NCBI RefSeq assembly: GCF_003725955.1 | Contig: NZ_QIBZ01000006.1 | Coordinates: forward strand, 62,001-126,000 | Direction: 5' to 3' | Source of the DNA: Slackia isoflavoniconvertens | GTDB lineage: Bacteria; Actinomycetota; Coriobacteriia; Coriobacteriales; Eggerthellaceae | DNA length: 64,000 bases | Shown here: piece by piece, positions 19,761-63,932 of the stretch | Layout of the letters: each line of letters starts with the position of its first letter | Numbering within the stretch: position 1 is the first letter of the stretch | Position numbers and translations under genes: made by a program | The notes under the pieces: model-generated | Database searches by the model: none | The model's input: only the letters and a program-made list of their open reading frames with translations | What the model was told of the DNA's origin: nothing

Positions 19761-19883
19761 TTGCCGTTCGCCTCGGACCTCACGCTCTGCTTCGGGCAGG
19801 TCCTGGCTCGCTCGAAAGCCACATTACGTGGCTTCCGGCTCGTGCGGAATCTTGCGTATCGCGAGGTTCGAGGCTAACGGCAA
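19761..19883 (+). repeat. Palindromic intergenic element, copy B1 (forward)
   Basis: A 123-bp element. Outer arms 19761-19781 and 19863-19883 pair at about 19 of 21 positions (TTGCCGTT...GACCTC with GAGGTT...AACGGCAA). Inside are conserved block 1 CTTCGGGCAGGTCCTGGCTC (19790 onward), a variable hairpin AAGCCAC-ATTAC-GTGGCTT (19816-19834), and conserved block 2 GCTCGTGCGGAATCTTGCG (19838-19856). The same two blocks recur at 19899-20013 in reverse and at 61883-62070. Arms differ between copies but pair within each copy. Confidence 0.75.
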
Positions 19884-19898
19884 GGCGCAGAATCACTT

Positions 19899-20013
19899 GT
19901 TTGCGTTCGCTTCCCTTGGGCCGATAGATTCCGCACGAGCAGAACAGCACCTCATGTGCTGTTCGTCGCGAGCAGGACTTGACCGAAGCGGATCAAGGGG
20001 AGCGAGCGCAAAC
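19899..20013 (-). repeat. Palindromic intergenic element, copy B2 (reverse)
   Basis: The same architecture as B1 on the minus strand, 15 bases away and head-to-head. Outer arms 19899-19918 and 19994-20013 pair at 18 of 20 positions. Block 2 is GATTCCGCACGAGC (19927-19940), the variable hairpin is GAACAGCAC-CTCAT-GTGCTGTTC (19942-19964), and block 1 reads CGCGAGCAGGACTTGACCG onward (19967-19990). Arm and hairpin sequences are unlike B1, while blocks 1 and 2 are clearly related. Confidence 0.75.
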
Positions 20014-55609: not shown

Positions 55610-55743
55610 CTTTGATATTCAAAATTTCTCTTCATATGCATGCTTTAGTGCGCTAAAGTAATCGTCACGACTTTTTGGGTCGGGCGTCCCATGCGCTCGC
55701 CTGCTGTGAAGTCGCGAGGCTCTCCATAAGGAAGGACTTCCCG

Positions 55744-57060
55744 ATGTCGAAGTACTATCAAGAAGAAATCGAGTGCATGGAGCACTCGAAGCTCGAGGAA
55801 CTTCAGCTCGAGCGTTTGCGCGACGTTGCCGTTCGCTGCTACGAGAACATCCCTCTCTACAAGCAGCGCTTTGATGAGGCTGGCGTCGATCCGTACCATA
55901 TCGAATCTCTCGAAGACATCAAGAAGTTTCCCTTTACCGTGAAGCAGGACATGCGCGACGCCTATCCGTTCGGTCTGTTCGCTGTGCCCCGCTCCGAATG
56001 CGTGCGCGTGCATGCGTCTTCGGGCACCACGGGCCAGGCGACCGTTGTGGGCTACACGAAAGATGACCTGCAGGTGTGGGGCGATTGCTTCGCGCGCGGC
56101 ATTTACATGCTCGGCGGCGGAGAAGATTCCGTCGTGCAGGTTTCTTATGGCTACGGCTTGTTCACGGGCGGTTTGGGCGCGCATTTCGGCGCCGAAGCCG
56201 CGGGCGCCATGGTTGTTCCCATGTCCACGGGCAACACCAAGCGCCAAATTCAGATCATGAAAGATTTCGGCGTCACCATTCTGTGCGCGACGCCTTCGTA
56301 TGCGCTGCTCATCGCCGATACCATTGCGGAAATGGGCATGAGCATGGACGAATTCAAACTCACCGGCGTCATCCTTGGCGCTGAGCCCTGCAGCGAAGCG
56401 ACGCGCGACGAGATTCGCCGCAAGCTTGGCGTGCAGTACTGCGACGTGTATGGCCTTTCCGAAATCATGGGCCCGGGCGTTGCCATGGAGTGCTCCGAGG
56501 CGAACGGTTTGCACCTGTGCGAAGACCAGTTCCTAGCAGAAATCGTGAACCCCGACACCTTCGAGCCTGTGCCCGACGGCGAATTCGGCGAGCTCGTCAT
56601 TACCACGCTCACGCGTCAGTGCACCCCGCTCATTCGCTATCGCACGCGCGACCTTACGCGCTTCATTCCGGGTGAGTGCGCCTGCGGCCGTACGCATAAG
56701 AAAATCGATCGCATCGTGGGCCGCACCGACGACATGCTCATTATTCGCGGCGTGAATGTGTTCCCGTCGCAAATCGAGCAGGTCGTGAACAGCTTCGACG
56801 AAATTACCCCGCATTACCAAATCGTGCTCACCACGAAGGGCACGCTCGACCAAATCGAGCTGCGCGTGGAAACCGCGCCCGACTTCCCGTTCGACGAGAT
56901 TCGTGCGCTCGAAGATTTGAGGAAGCGTTTGGCGGCTGCCTTGAAGTCGAATTTGCAGATTGCTGTTAAGATTAAATTCTGCGAGCCGAAGACTATCGAG
57001 CGCAGTGAGGGCAAATCGAAGCGCGTTATCGATTTGCGCGAAGTGAAGCAGCAGAACTAA
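55744..57060 (+). CDS. paaK: Phenylacetate-CoA ligase-like enzyme, copy 1
   Basis: An adenylate-forming ligase of 438 residues that would link aryl-acetates to CoA. Motifs: the P-loop-like VHASSGTTGQATVVGYTKDD, YGYGLFTGGLGAHFGAEAAG, DVYGLSEIMGPGVAMEC and YRTRDLTRFIPGECACGRTH. The C-terminal hinge region has RTDDMLIIRGVNVFPSQIEQ, and the terminal catalytic Lys is likely in ERSEGKSKRVIDLR. ATG 55744 has AAGGAAGG upstream. It is followed after 16 bases by an ACT-domain gene. A second similar ligase is at 62568-63932. In amino-acid fermenters the enzyme may run in the direction of AMP-dependent thioester formation or serve energy recovery. Confidence 0.9.
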   Translation: MSKYYQEEIECMEHSKLEELQLERLRDVAVRCYENIPLYKQRFDEAGVDPYHIESLEDIKKFPFTVKQDMRDAYPFGLFAVPRSECVRVHASSGTTGQATVVGYTKDDLQVWGDCFARGIYMLGGGEDSVVQVSYGYGLFTGGLGAHFGAEAAGAMVVPMSTGNTKRQIQIMKDFGVTILCATPSYALLIADTIAEMGMSMDEFKLTGVILGAEPCSEATRDEIRRKLGVQYCDVYGLSEIMGPGVAMECSEANGLHLCEDQFLAEIVNPDTFEPVPDGEFGELVITTLTRQCTPLIRYRTRDLTRFIPGECACGRTHKKIDRIVGRTDDMLIIRGVNVFPSQIEQVVNSFDEITPHYQIVLTTKGTLDQIELRVETAPDFPFDEIRALEDLRKRLAAALKSNLQIAVKIKFCEPKTIERSEGKSKRVIDLREVKQQN

Positions 57061-57076
57061 CGAGGGGAGCACAATC

Positions 57077-57502
57077 ATGATCGAACAGCTCACCGTTTTC
57101 ATCCAAAACGAGAAGGGCCGCCTGTCTGGCCTGTGCCGCACGCTTGCCGATGCGAATATCAACATGCATGACCTTTTCATCGCCGACACGAGCGACTTCG
57201 GCGTCGTGCGCGTTTTCTGCGATACGCCCCAGGCCGCCGCGAAGGTGCTCGACGAAGCGGGCTTCCGTGCGAGCGTTACCAAGGTGCTCGCCGTGCGCGT
57301 TCCTAATGAGCCGGGCGGTTTGGCCCACTTGCTCGAGACCATCGAATCGATGGGCGCCAATATCGAATATGGCTATTGCTTTTCGCGTGGAGAGGCCACG
57401 GCCATTGACGTTTTGAAGGTTGTAGACGATACCGTTGAAGGCAAGCTTTCCGAAGCTGGCTTTGATGTCGTTTCTGCTGAGGAGGTCTATAAGCTTGATT
57501 AG
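57077..57502 (+). CDS. Tandem ACT-domain protein, copy 1
   Basis: A 141-residue soluble protein with two ACT-like repeats: EQLTVFIQNEKGRLSGLCRT starts the first, and VTKVLAVRVPNEPGGLAHLL the second. ACT domains bind amino acids or related small molecules. Pairing with a phenylacetate-CoA ligase is a known gene association and suggests that the protein senses or modulates aromatic amino acid breakdown. GTG/ATG choice is clear: ATG 57077 with GAGGGGAG upstream. Its stop lies 7 bases inside the carboxypeptidase start. Confidence 0.87.
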   Translation: MIEQLTVFIQNEKGRLSGLCRTLADANINMHDLFIADTSDFGVVRVFCDTPQAAAKVLDEAGFRASVTKVLAVRVPNEPGGLAHLLETIESMGANIEYGYCFSRGEATAIDVLKVVDDTVEGKLSEAGFDVVSAEEVYKLD

Positions 57503-61277: not shown

Positions 61278-61868
61278 ATGAGCAACGATACGAAAACTGT
61301 GCTTCTGTCGGGCGTTGGCGGCCAGGGTGCTATTCTCGCTGCCGACATTTTGAGCCGTGTCGCCATGGCGTGCGGCCAGGACGTGAAGCTTTCCGAGATC
61401 CACGGCATGGCCCAGCGTGGCGGCGCCGTGACCACCGTGGTTCGTCTGGGCGATTCGGTGGCTTCGATGGTTGCCGACAAAGGCAGCGTCGATTACTTGG
61501 TTTCTTTCGAGAAGGTTGAGGCGCTGCGCAATATCGAGTTTCTCAAAGATGGCGGCGCGCTGCTCGTAAACGATGAGTTCATCAAGCCGCTGCCTGTCGC
61601 TACGGGTGCCGTGCAGGCTCCGAGCGGCGTTGTTGAATCGCTTGAGCAGGCGGGCGCCGTGCTGGTGCCGGCTGAGGCTTTGGCGAAAGAGGCGGGCAGC
61701 GTGAAGGCTGTGAACGTCGTGCTTTTGGGCGCGCTTTCCACGAAGCTCAGCTATGACGAGGCCACCTGGCTTTCTGTTATCGAATCTCGCGTTCCCGCTA
61801 AGTTCAAGGACGTGAATATCGCAGCCTTCAAACTTGGACGAAAGTTCGTGGAGGAATGCTCCGCATAA
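61278..61868 (+). CDS. iorB: Indolepyruvate:ferredoxin oxidoreductase, beta subunit
   Basis: The 196-residue gamma-type 2-oxoacid:acceptor subunit. Its opening VLLSGVGGQGAILAADILSR is diagnostic, followed by KLSEIHGMAQRGGAVTTVVR. It starts 12 bases after iorA, so the two are cotranslated. It lacks Fe-S motifs, consistent with IorB. Confidence 0.94.
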   Translation: MSNDTKTVLLSGVGGQGAILAADILSRVAMACGQDVKLSEIHGMAQRGGAVTTVVRLGDSVASMVADKGSVDYLVSFEKVEALRNIEFLKDGGALLVNDEFIKPLPVATGAVQAPSGVVESLEQAGAVLVPAEALAKEAGSVKAVNVVLLGALSTKLSYDEATWLSVIESRVPAKFKDVNIAAFKLGRKFVEECSA

Positions 61869-61882
61869 GGGTTTCCTCTTCA

Positions 61883-62070
61883 GGATTGGAGCGGCTGACA
61901 TGCGTTTCCACTTCGGGCAGGTCCTGCTCGCTCGGACAGCCTACTATTGCCGCTCAGCTGCACGGAGCAGCAATGCGCCCGCTCGGGCGCAATTGAAGTG
62001 GGGTTTAAATGCCCACAGGACATTTAAACGTGCGGAATCTTGCGGATACGCACACCAGCCGCTCCAATCC
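61883..62070 (+). repeat. Palindromic intergenic element, copy C (large form)
   Basis: Outer arms GGATTGGAGCGGCTG (61883-61897) and its exact complement (62056-62070) enclose block 1 CTTCGGGCAGGTCCTGCTCG (61911 onward) and block 2 GTGCGGAATCTTGCG (62030-62044), as in the elements before aroA. Between the blocks this copy carries extra hairpins: TTGCCGCTC/GAGCAGCAA-type, TGCGCC/GGGCGCA-type, and GTTTAAATG-N9-CATTTAAAC (62003-62029). CCACTTC (61908-61914) also pairs with GAAGTGG (61995-62001). It starts 14 bases after iorB and ends 40 bases before the ACT gene. Confidence 0.78.
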
Positions 62071-62110
62071 CTGTTTAAACCAAAAAAGGATTGCTTGAAA
62101 GGGGAACTGT

Positions 62111-62563
62111 ATGAGCATTTCTCAGATTGGCGTGTTCGTTGAGAACCATCCGGGACACGTGGCTCGCGTGCTCGACGCGTTTGTCGAGGCCGAAGTGCAG
62201 GTTCGCGGCTATTGCATGAGCGATACGGGCGACTATGGCATTGTGCGCTTCGTGGTTGATAACCCCGAAAAGGCGAAGCAGGTGCTGGCCGATATGGGCT
62301 GCGCCGTGGTCGCGAAAGAGGTTTTGTGCCTGCGCCTTCCCGACAGGCCGGGCGAGCTTGCCCGCATCATGGGCGTGTTCGCGAAGCTGAACATCAACGT
62401 TGAATACAGCTATTCGCTCGTTTCCACCTATATCGCCATTTCGGTGAAAGATTTGGCGGCGGCCGAAGAGGCTTTGAAGAAAGAAACGGTTGAGCTTATC
62501 GACCAGGCGCAACTTACTGCGCTCGTCGACCTCGATCGTAGCAATGCCCAGGAAGGCAGGTAG
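62111..62563 (+). CDS. Tandem ACT-domain protein, copy 2
   Basis: A 150-residue protein with two ACT-like repeats: SQIGVFVENHPGHVARVLDA opens the first and AKEVLCLRLPDRPGELARIM the second. It resembles the ACT protein at 57077-57502 in size and layout but not closely in sequence. The start ATG 62111 follows GAAAGGGG. It precedes the second ligase gene by 4 bases, in the reverse order of copy 1. Confidence 0.88.
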   Translation: MSISQIGVFVENHPGHVARVLDAFVEAEVQVRGYCMSDTGDYGIVRFVVDNPEKAKQVLADMGCAVVAKEVLCLRLPDRPGELARIMGVFAKLNINVEYSYSLVSTYIAISVKDLAAAEEALKKETVELIDQAQLTALVDLDRSNAQEGR

Positions 62564-62567
62564 TTCC

Positions 62568-63932
62568 GTGGCAGACATGACCGTGAAGGGCGCCGCGCTG
62601 AAAGCGGCGGCCGAGGGGCGCTTCGATGAGTTGCCCATCCACAACCCGTCCATTGAGTGCGCGAGCCGTGAGCGCATCGAGGCTATTCAGCTCGCTCGTC
62701 TTATCGACCAGGTTGAATGGACGTATAACCGCGTTGCGTGGTATCGCGACAAAATGGACGCGATGGGCGTGAAGCCTTCCGATATCAAAACGTTGGCCGA
62801 TGTGCGCAAGCTTCCCTTCACCGATAAGAACGCCCTGCGCGAGACGTTCCCGTATGGCCTGTTCGCCGAATCGCTCGACGATATCGTCGAATTGCATGCC
62901 TCTTCGGGCACCACGGGCAAGCCGATCGTCGTTGGTTACGACCGCGGCGACATGGATTTGTGGGCCGATTGCATTATGCGCTTGGTTCAAATGGCGGGCG
63001 TCGTGCCGAGCGACCGCGTGCAAATGGCATTCGGCTATGGCATGTTTACCGGCGGTTTTGGCCTTCATTATGGCCTGCAGCGCCTTGGATGCATGATGAT
63101 TCCTGCGGGTTCGGGCAATACCGAGCGTCAGATTCAGATGATTCAAGACTACGGTTCTACGGTTCTCGTTGCCACGCCGAGCTACGCCATGCATGTGTGC
63201 GAAGTGGGCGAGAAGATGGGCGTCGACTGGGAGAAGAGCACTCTGCGCATCGGCCTGTTCGGTGGCGAGCCTTGCACGCCTGCCCTGAAGGCTGAAATCG
63301 AGAGCCGCATGCATATCGTGTGCACCGACAACTATGGCCTGACCGAGGTCATGGGCCCAGGCGTTTCGGGCGAGTGCCTCGCGAGCCGCGACATGCAGCA
63401 TATCGCCGAAGACCACTTCCTGTGGGAGGTCGTCGACCCGAAGACTGGCGAGCCGGTGCCCGACGGCGAAGAGGGCGAGCTCGTGCTCACGCCGCTTGGC
63501 AAGCATGCCATTCCGGTGCTTCGCTATCGCACGCACGACCTTACGCGCGTCGTCAAGGAAAAGTGCGCGTGCGGCCGTACCACGGCGCGCATGCAGAAGG
63601 TGCGTAGCCGTTGCGACGACATGCTCATCATTCGTGGCACCAATGTGTTCCCGAGCCAGGTGGAAGACGTGCTTTCCACCATCGAGGGCGTTACGCCGCA
63701 TTATCGCATCGTGGTCGATAACGAAACCGGCCTCGATCGCATGGTGGTGCATGTAGAGCTTAAGCCTGAAGCCTTCAGCGACTCCTTCGAGGAAATGGAC
63801 GCATTCCGTCGCATGATCGAAGAGAAGCTCAAGAGCGTCATGCTTGTGGCTTCAAAGGTGAAACTCGTCGAGCCTGGCGGCATCGAGCGCTCCATAGGCA
63901 AGACGAAGCATGTGCAAGACTTGCGTATATAA
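62568..63932 (+). CDS. paaK: Phenylacetate-CoA ligase-like enzyme, copy 2
   Basis: A 454-residue adenylate-forming ligase. GTG 62568 follows GGAAGGCAGG; ATG 62577 is an alternative. It shares with copy 1 the motifs ELHASSGTTGKPIVVGYDRG, FGYGMFTGGFGLHYGLQRLG, DNYGLTEVMGPGVSGECLAS and YRTHDLTRVVKEKCACGRTT, plus SRCDDMLIIRGTNVFPSQVE. An about 25-residue N-terminal extension (KGAALKAAAEGRFDELPIHN) is absent from copy 1. The C-terminal catalytic Lys region is ERSIGKTKHVQDLR. It could have a different aryl-acid specificity (for example indole- versus phenyl-acetate), which is not readable here. Confidence 0.9.
   Translation: MADMTVKGAALKAAAEGRFDELPIHNPSIECASRERIEAIQLARLIDQVEWTYNRVAWYRDKMDAMGVKPSDIKTLADVRKLPFTDKNALRETFPYGLFAESLDDIVELHASSGTTGKPIVVGYDRGDMDLWADCIMRLVQMAGVVPSDRVQMAFGYGMFTGGFGLHYGLQRLGCMMIPAGSGNTERQIQMIQDYGSTVLVATPSYAMHVCEVGEKMGVDWEKSTLRIGLFGGEPCTPALKAEIESRMHIVCTDNYGLTEVMGPGVSGECLASRDMQHIAEDHFLWEVVDPKTGEPVPDGEEGELVLTPLGKHAIPVLRYRTHDLTRVVKEKCACGRTTARMQKVRSRCDDMLIIRGTNVFPSQVEDVLSTIEGVTPHYRIVVDNETGLDRMVVHVELKPEAFSDSFEEMDAFRRMIEEKLKSVMLVASKVKLVEPGGIERSIGKTKHVQDLRI

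Follow-up and report, generated by a model that had tools for sequence, protein, structure and literature searches.

The window, that is, the whole 64,000-nucleotide stretch of Slackia isoflavoniconvertens DNA analysed here, carries towards its right end genes resembling iorA and iorB, followed by a gene for an ACT_8 protein and one for a PaaK-like ligase. The ACT_8 neighbour exceeds the Pfam cut-off, and the NCBIfam scores of the iorA, iorB and PaaK assignments lie under the curated cut-offs. Two paaK/ACT modules flank iorAB, one in the order paaK-ACT (55675-57502) and the other in the order ACT-paaK (62111-63932). Between the iorB-like and ACT_8 genes lies a 188-nt palindromic structure (61883-62070), and a search of 61700-62300 gave neither promoter-like nor terminator-like sites, the count of GC stems followed by a T run being 0.

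The structure is described on the + strand. Its left outer arm GGATTGGAGCGGCTG (61883-61897) is the exact reverse complement of the right outer arm CAGCCGCTCCAATCC (62056-62070), with 15 of 15 positions complementary, and the pairing runs on as an imperfect 12-bp stretch between the left inner arm ACATGCGTTTCC (61898-61909) and the right inner arm (62044-62055), giving a total of 27 nt with 85% complementarity. This inner CATGCG/CGCAC stretch is semi-conserved among the copies of this genome. Enclosed by these arms are two conserved blocks known from alignments of other copies, block 1 ACTTCGGGCAGGTCCTGCTCGC (61910-61931) and block 2 GTGCGGAATCTTGC (62030-62043). What follows block 1 (61932-61945) is probably left over from the 5′ half of the apical hairpin that copies normally carry, judging from comparison with the L002 copy and with simple copies. 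Thereafter come three hairpins where simple copies have one: hairpin a (61946-61974), delimited by the fold and with a counterpart preceding hairpin b in L013-L017 and L022; hairpin b GCGCCCGCTCGGGCGCA (61975-61991), the fixed sequence of a second repeat family, recognised by a 16-17-nt match at other loci; and hairpin c GTTTAAATGCCC/GGACATTTAAAC (62003-62029), containing the GTTTAAATG/CATTTAAAC pair.

The predicted fold of this copy was more stable than 200 of 200 shuffles, both as RNA of the + strand (z −7.15) and as DNA of the − strand (z −8.15). The 64-kb window contains two perfect 15-mers that recur in inverted form no more than 220 nt away, against a mean of 0.06 and a maximum of 4 in 200 Markov windows; one belongs to the copy at 61883-62070 and the other to block 2 of an inverted pair at 19.8-20.0 kb. 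When 13 further copies were used to build a covariance model, it matched 61890-62067 with an E value of 2.9e-8. The first-pass annotation of this DNA had taken the structure for a third copy of one element, with both conserved blocks, perfect 15-bp outer arms unrelated to those of the other copies and extra hairpins between the blocks, and all of this held. The same model identified a simple-form copy at 19769-19879 (+, 91.7 bits) and its inverted partner at 19899-20009 (−, 102.5 bits). A weak match at 912-1043 (E 0.034) looks like a remnant that keeps block 2 only.

Within this genome, 45 matches to the sequence of the window copy were found, many of them partial. Common to the copies are the AGTCCTG-CTCGC and GCTCGTGCGGAA blocks around a variable apical stem, and the outer arms are complementary within each copy and unrelated between copies. 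A family member can thus be described as a hairpin of ~110-190 nt with a locus-specific outer stem, an asymmetric conserved core (AGTCCT..GCTCGC / GCTCGTGCGGAA) and a variable apical stem. Most copies are single, the head-to-head inverted pair at 19769-20009 of the window being of the other kind.

The enlarged window copy is composite. Hairpins a-b-c occur without the blocks of the first family at six other loci of this genome (L013, L014, L015, L016, L017 and L022), with two tandem copies at L017, and three copies of the first family (the window copy, L002 and L003) contain the same three-hairpin module; in the window copy it stands in place of half the usual apical hairpin. The five of the six independent loci that were aligned place the module in a longer multi-hairpin repeat, the L014 one being partial. 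Since the module also stands alone outside the blocks of the first family, the enlarged copy is a hybrid of two repeat families, and the direction of exchange between them is our inference. The suggestion of a modular insertion of stems was thereby strengthened, the inserted hairpins being a unit found outside the element. The plan of block, hairpins and block is repeated at C1:68136 and C24:800 of this genome, which speaks against the inserted hairpins being an assembly artefact. As a separate observation, L013, L014, L015, L016 and L022 belong to a second, longer multi-hairpin repeat family placed directly after genes, with fixed linkers and variable stems, for which an Rfam scan gave nothing over the cut-off.

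The element is also present in other genomes, contrary to the complete absence elsewhere that would have spoken against the first-pass annotation. Covariance-model matches were obtained in 9 of the 12 genomes of the genus and in all five of genus g27, in which G077 and G079 are taken as Gordonibacter; these counts are lower bounds, 150 candidates having been scored per genome. A pattern scan of named species returned at least 119 stretches, and among the 80 listed, eight are titled outside the class and their matches lack good arms (arm score of at most 12.5). A ninth, a metagenome-assembled genome titled Corynebacterium (L247), bears a full element with arms and is probably a mislabelled Coriobacteriales genome. 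A looser pattern, exact and therefore missing variants, was found in 135 of 396 Coriobacteriia genomes, mainly of families f1 and f3 and rarely of f2. Outside the order, 5 of 83 genomes contained it, fewer than the 11 of 83 that matched the reversed control, and none of the sequences listed for those five was an element. The 21 C. aerofaciens-like genomes had 13-30 pattern matches each, a few of them by chance (e.g., G224:C2:58803). The family is thus patchy in Coriobacteriales (Slackia-like genomes, Gordonibacter, Adlercreutzia and Collinsella) and at control level in the 83 outside-order genomes. In Rfam scans of 23 loci, tRNAs alone passed the gathering cut-off, and the matches below it that touched some copies were to microRNA-precursor families (MIR918, E 0.018; MIR1437, 47.4 bits vs 168). 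Among the papers listed, mostly outside subscription journals, none described such an element in Coriobacteriales; PMC3733652 does not mention Collinsella, Eggerthella, Slackia or Coriobacter.

The interval between iorB and ACT was compared with that of relatives, seven of which had both genes in one locus, three had iorB found only and one had no match. The gap between aligned ends was 14-86 nt in all seven, against 245 nt in the window. The relatives share 67-75% identity with the window and are too diverged to reveal a clean empty site or to date the insertion. Closer comparisons were available at other loci. Downstream of a manA-like gene for mannose-6-phosphate isomerase (Pfam PMI_typeI_cat) in the C. 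aerofaciens complex, the element was present in 9 and absent in 11 of the 20 genomes that could be read at this site (all of the 21 but L315), and two of the nine filled copies are cut by contig ends. Five genomes of the family at a greater distance (four g62, one g52) also lack the element; these were the readable ones of nine loci (L324, L325 and L327 lack the anchor and L326 is a spurious match). The filled state is therefore probably the derived one. The empty manA sites carry neither arm, and by eye no target duplication was evident. In some strains only, a ~1.9-kb segment with two ORFs lies beside the manA-site element (L205:2166-3949; L298-L302); it looked to us like a toxin-antitoxin pair, and Pfam gave no match.

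Similar differences were observed in Gordonibacter, in which four of five G077 sites tried (all but L122) could be read in G079. G077 has the element at L128 and L134, where G079 and G078 do not; the empty L128 site again holds neither arm, and at L134 a fourth genome (G080) carries an element with other arms. At L139, G079 has a different short hairpin and no element, and at L135 the element is kept in G079. In addition, the right flank of L200 matched one genome only, among the matches listed. Empty sites with neither arm imply that copies arrive together with their arms or that deletions remove the whole element. For the family, these filled and empty sites support the view that the element is a tolerated or mobile insertion. 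Nested copies (L126; L125 vs L140) and chimeras (L316 and L226) were also seen, and from these it would seem that elements come together and recombine at the core. In G077 and G079, a ~50-nt hairpin-rich motif (query positions ~203-253) gave dozens of matches in each genome.

The arms of a given locus change in a concerted way. When 61 of the 95 listed copies were aligned, two-sided changes that preserve pairing were seen at 15 of the 18 consensus pairs. Between two Gordonibacter species, which are ~86-95% identical in aligned blocks, ten of 12 orthologous pairs were analysed, L125/L140 (nested) and L131/L155 (the same site with unrelated arms in the two species) being excluded. In these ten, 20 arm pairs had changed on both sides and were still Watson-Crick, against 0-4 such pairs when the pairing was slid by 1-5 positions as a control. 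A further 24 arm pairs had changed on one side; one-sided changes included 9 G.T vs 10 A.C. Substitutions amounted to 66 of 672 positions in arms, 238 of 2854 in flanks and 15 of 493 in the core; in this one species pair, with flanks that are in part coding, arms change approximately as fast as flanks, and the core changes more slowly. One paired indel was also found, a matching insertion in both arms of L132/L150. In Collinsella, three alternative inner loops swap on both sides together (by eye), and at site S2 a few discrete arm alleles lie between near-identical flanks, one copy (L361) combining left and right arms that belong to different alleles. The core was kept at three Collinsella sites, in 18 of 18 (S2), 19 of 20 (S3) and 20 of 20 (S4) copies, which were fetched only where flanks had matched, and the single S3 miss (L390) is cut by a contig end; turnover can therefore be slow. 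In L229, from one draft genome, the apical hairpin and block 2 are gone and are replaced by the reverse complement, exact throughout, of the left inner arm and block 1 of its orthologue L202. From its sequence, this looks like what a fold-back template switch would leave.

Arm mismatches were counted in 109 elements, after dropping orthologues, duplicates and arm scores below 10. At 16 nt or more from block 2, 88 A.C mismatches stood against 54 G.T (p 0.005), and beyond 20 nt the numbers were 43 G.T vs 47 A.C (summed bins, with the limit picked after the bins were seen). We attribute the A.C excess to a mismatch fixed in a subtype at 12-19 nt; G.U pairing in an opposite-strand transcript could explain it as well. 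Relative to tandem genes from our own gene caller, 33 elements lay sense and 36 antisense overall, with ratios of 6:14 in Slackia-like genomes, 24:10 in Eggerthellaceae and 3:12 in Collinsella. This count used the 98 elements that remained once orthologues, 11 elements lying inside called ORFs and any not flanked by called genes on both sides had been dropped. Among 75 matches listed, 12 with arm scores below 13 (the eight outside the class plus L184, L208, L216 and L226) were omitted from the mismatch, orientation and attC counts.

As to possible vehicles and partners, all 11 close pairs (less than ~700 nt apart) in the covariance list of the genus are head to head (+ then −), as read from that list after removal of 10 opposite-strand shadows of G000. 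Same-orientation neighbours were seen as two copies in L192 and as the composite at C24:800 (+) beside C24:649 (+). Y1_Tnp genes occur in 9 of 14 genomes, being absent from the element-bearing G077, G001 and G010, and reverse transcriptase genes occur in 3 of 14. Around these genes, 19 loci (~1.5 kb on either side), 15 of them Y1_Tnp loci, held no block-2 match; a reverse transcriptase or Y1 transposase as linked partner was thus rejected for the 14 genomes, and among these two candidate types no mobilising enzyme was found. Carriage by phages was likewise dismissed, one simple copy and the window copy having no phage match, and two viral-contig matches being the same stretch without arms. Plasmid carriage fared no better: the one plasmid record matched by a Collinsella copy is a C. 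aerofaciens contig of 899,693 bp that is probably chromosomal.

Taken together, we consider that the family is probably a DNA-level hairpin repeat that inserts occasionally and in which template switching largely maintains the match between the arms. The element would work, if at all, as DNA, its core being sequence-specific and its stems needing only to pair. New copies, arms included, would appear from time to time in intergenic DNA through some mobilising agent, and established arms would drift approximately at the rate of the flanks, but in concert. In the simplest reading, replication through the hairpin would switch template and rewrite one arm from the other, and elements would recombine with or insert within one another to give nested, chimeric and enlarged forms. 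The window copy is such an enlarged form, in which three hairpins of the second family replace half its apical stem. A more specific version is possible, on which we place tentative weight: these would be lineage-specific mobile DNA hairpins with arms as free-running text continually rewritten by template switching, so that template-switch events of replication would be recorded at dozens of loci per genome, and a Coriobacteriales factor would recognise the single-stranded core hairpin and copy it with its arms.

The main rival, which we regard as rather unlikely, is a structured RNA element (an attenuator, a processing site or a site for an RNA-binding protein) in which selection on the helix makes the arms covary. 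The strong covariation, the conserved internal loops, a core slower than the flanks and the position of copies often near stop or start codons (by eye) would all be expected of it; selection for pairing would yield two-sided changes too, and the 24 one-sided pairs that stand besides the 20 count against rewriting. Yet arms are not slower than flanks, and neither the mismatches beyond 20 nt nor the one-sided changes show an excess of G.U, and we therefore favour mutational rewriting over selection for a helix in RNA of the element's own orientation. The near-even orientation overall and the Rfam scans point the same way, whereas two observations would suit an RNA copied from the opposite strand, namely the orientation skews within groups and the surplus of A.C mismatches from 16 nt onwards; the opposite skews may indicate a group-specific role. 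The internal processing or regulatory site proposed in the first-pass annotation is consequently not upheld as a general role of the family, given the mismatches, the orientations and the interval free of promoter-like and terminator-like sites. In the window, the copy separating iorB from ACT has probably just been tolerated as an insertion, and any influence on the transcript would be incidental; iorB-ACT-paaK expression may be affected locally.

Movement as a single-stranded hairpin by a Y1 transposase of RAYT type acting in trans, as for REP/REPIN elements, seems improbable to us. The palindromic, intergenic and multi-copy character and the uniformly head-to-head close pairs recall REPIN inverted pairs, but the same-orientation neighbours, the element-bearing genomes free of Y1_Tnp, the 19 loci without block 2 and the scarcity of GTAG at the arm end (10 of 127 copies) argue against it. 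Still less credit is given to the idea that the core entered the loop of a hairpin already present (a terminator, for instance), so that the arms would be the former target: A/T-tract outer stems surround some copies (L186 and L237), some copies are nested in other hairpins, and the L139 site without element holds a hairpin of its own, but a bare core entering a ready-made hairpin is contradicted by the armless empty sites of Collinsella manA and Gordonibacter L128. That the hairpins arise by chance or misassembly is hardly credible. Repeats near contig ends can misassemble, and two filled manA copies do end there; against this stand the shuffled folds, the Markov windows, the pattern control, the covariation and the presence of elements in the single-contig genomes G077 and G260.

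If the occasionally inserting, template-switched DNA hairpin is the right reading, gut bacteria (Collinsella, Gordonibacter, Adlercreutzia and relatives of Slackia) carry a repeat family for which the searches made here returned no name and whose paired arms evolve together, approximately as fast as their surroundings. Its loci would let quasi-palindrome template switching be studied in naturally replicated form, might serve for strain typing and could lead to a DNA-hairpin factor. For annotators, strong covarying intergenic hairpins need not be regulatory RNAs.

Several known systems resemble the element in part. Integron attC sites carry RYYYAAC ... GTTRRRY boxes in their arms, and these were present in none of 63 elements, so this identity was rejected. 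REP, BIME and REPIN sequences are likewise short intergenic palindromes in many copies, single or in inverted pairs; REP/REPIN elements are palindromes of 20-40 nt tagged at one end with GTAG (or CGTC) and have a linked Y1 (RAYT) gene, whereas the element described here measures at least ~110 nt, has locus-specific arms and showed neither a linked Y1 gene nor a consistent GTAG tag (in the tag sense near the arm end, GTAG in 10 and CGTC in 7 of 127 copies, as raw counts). The BOX elements of Streptococcus (boxA-boxB-boxC) offer a likeness of organisation in their fixed outer modules, variable middle and enlargement by added modules (PMC3049150). BOX varies in the number of tandem boxB units, whereas the present element has its variable arms outside the fixed blocks and gained its extra module from a different repeat family. 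MITEs are similar in being small, highly base-paired and present or absent at orthologous sites, with no gene in the copies read here; the element differs from them in its outer arms, which are unrelated between loci and form no shared terminal inverted repeat, and in that no partner transposase was identified; a target duplication was not evident by eye at the manA site. Finally, quasi-palindrome template-switch mutation, described in E. coli and yeast, differs in being a mutation process and not a family of elements, but it matches arms by copying one from the other, and L229 looks like one of its products.
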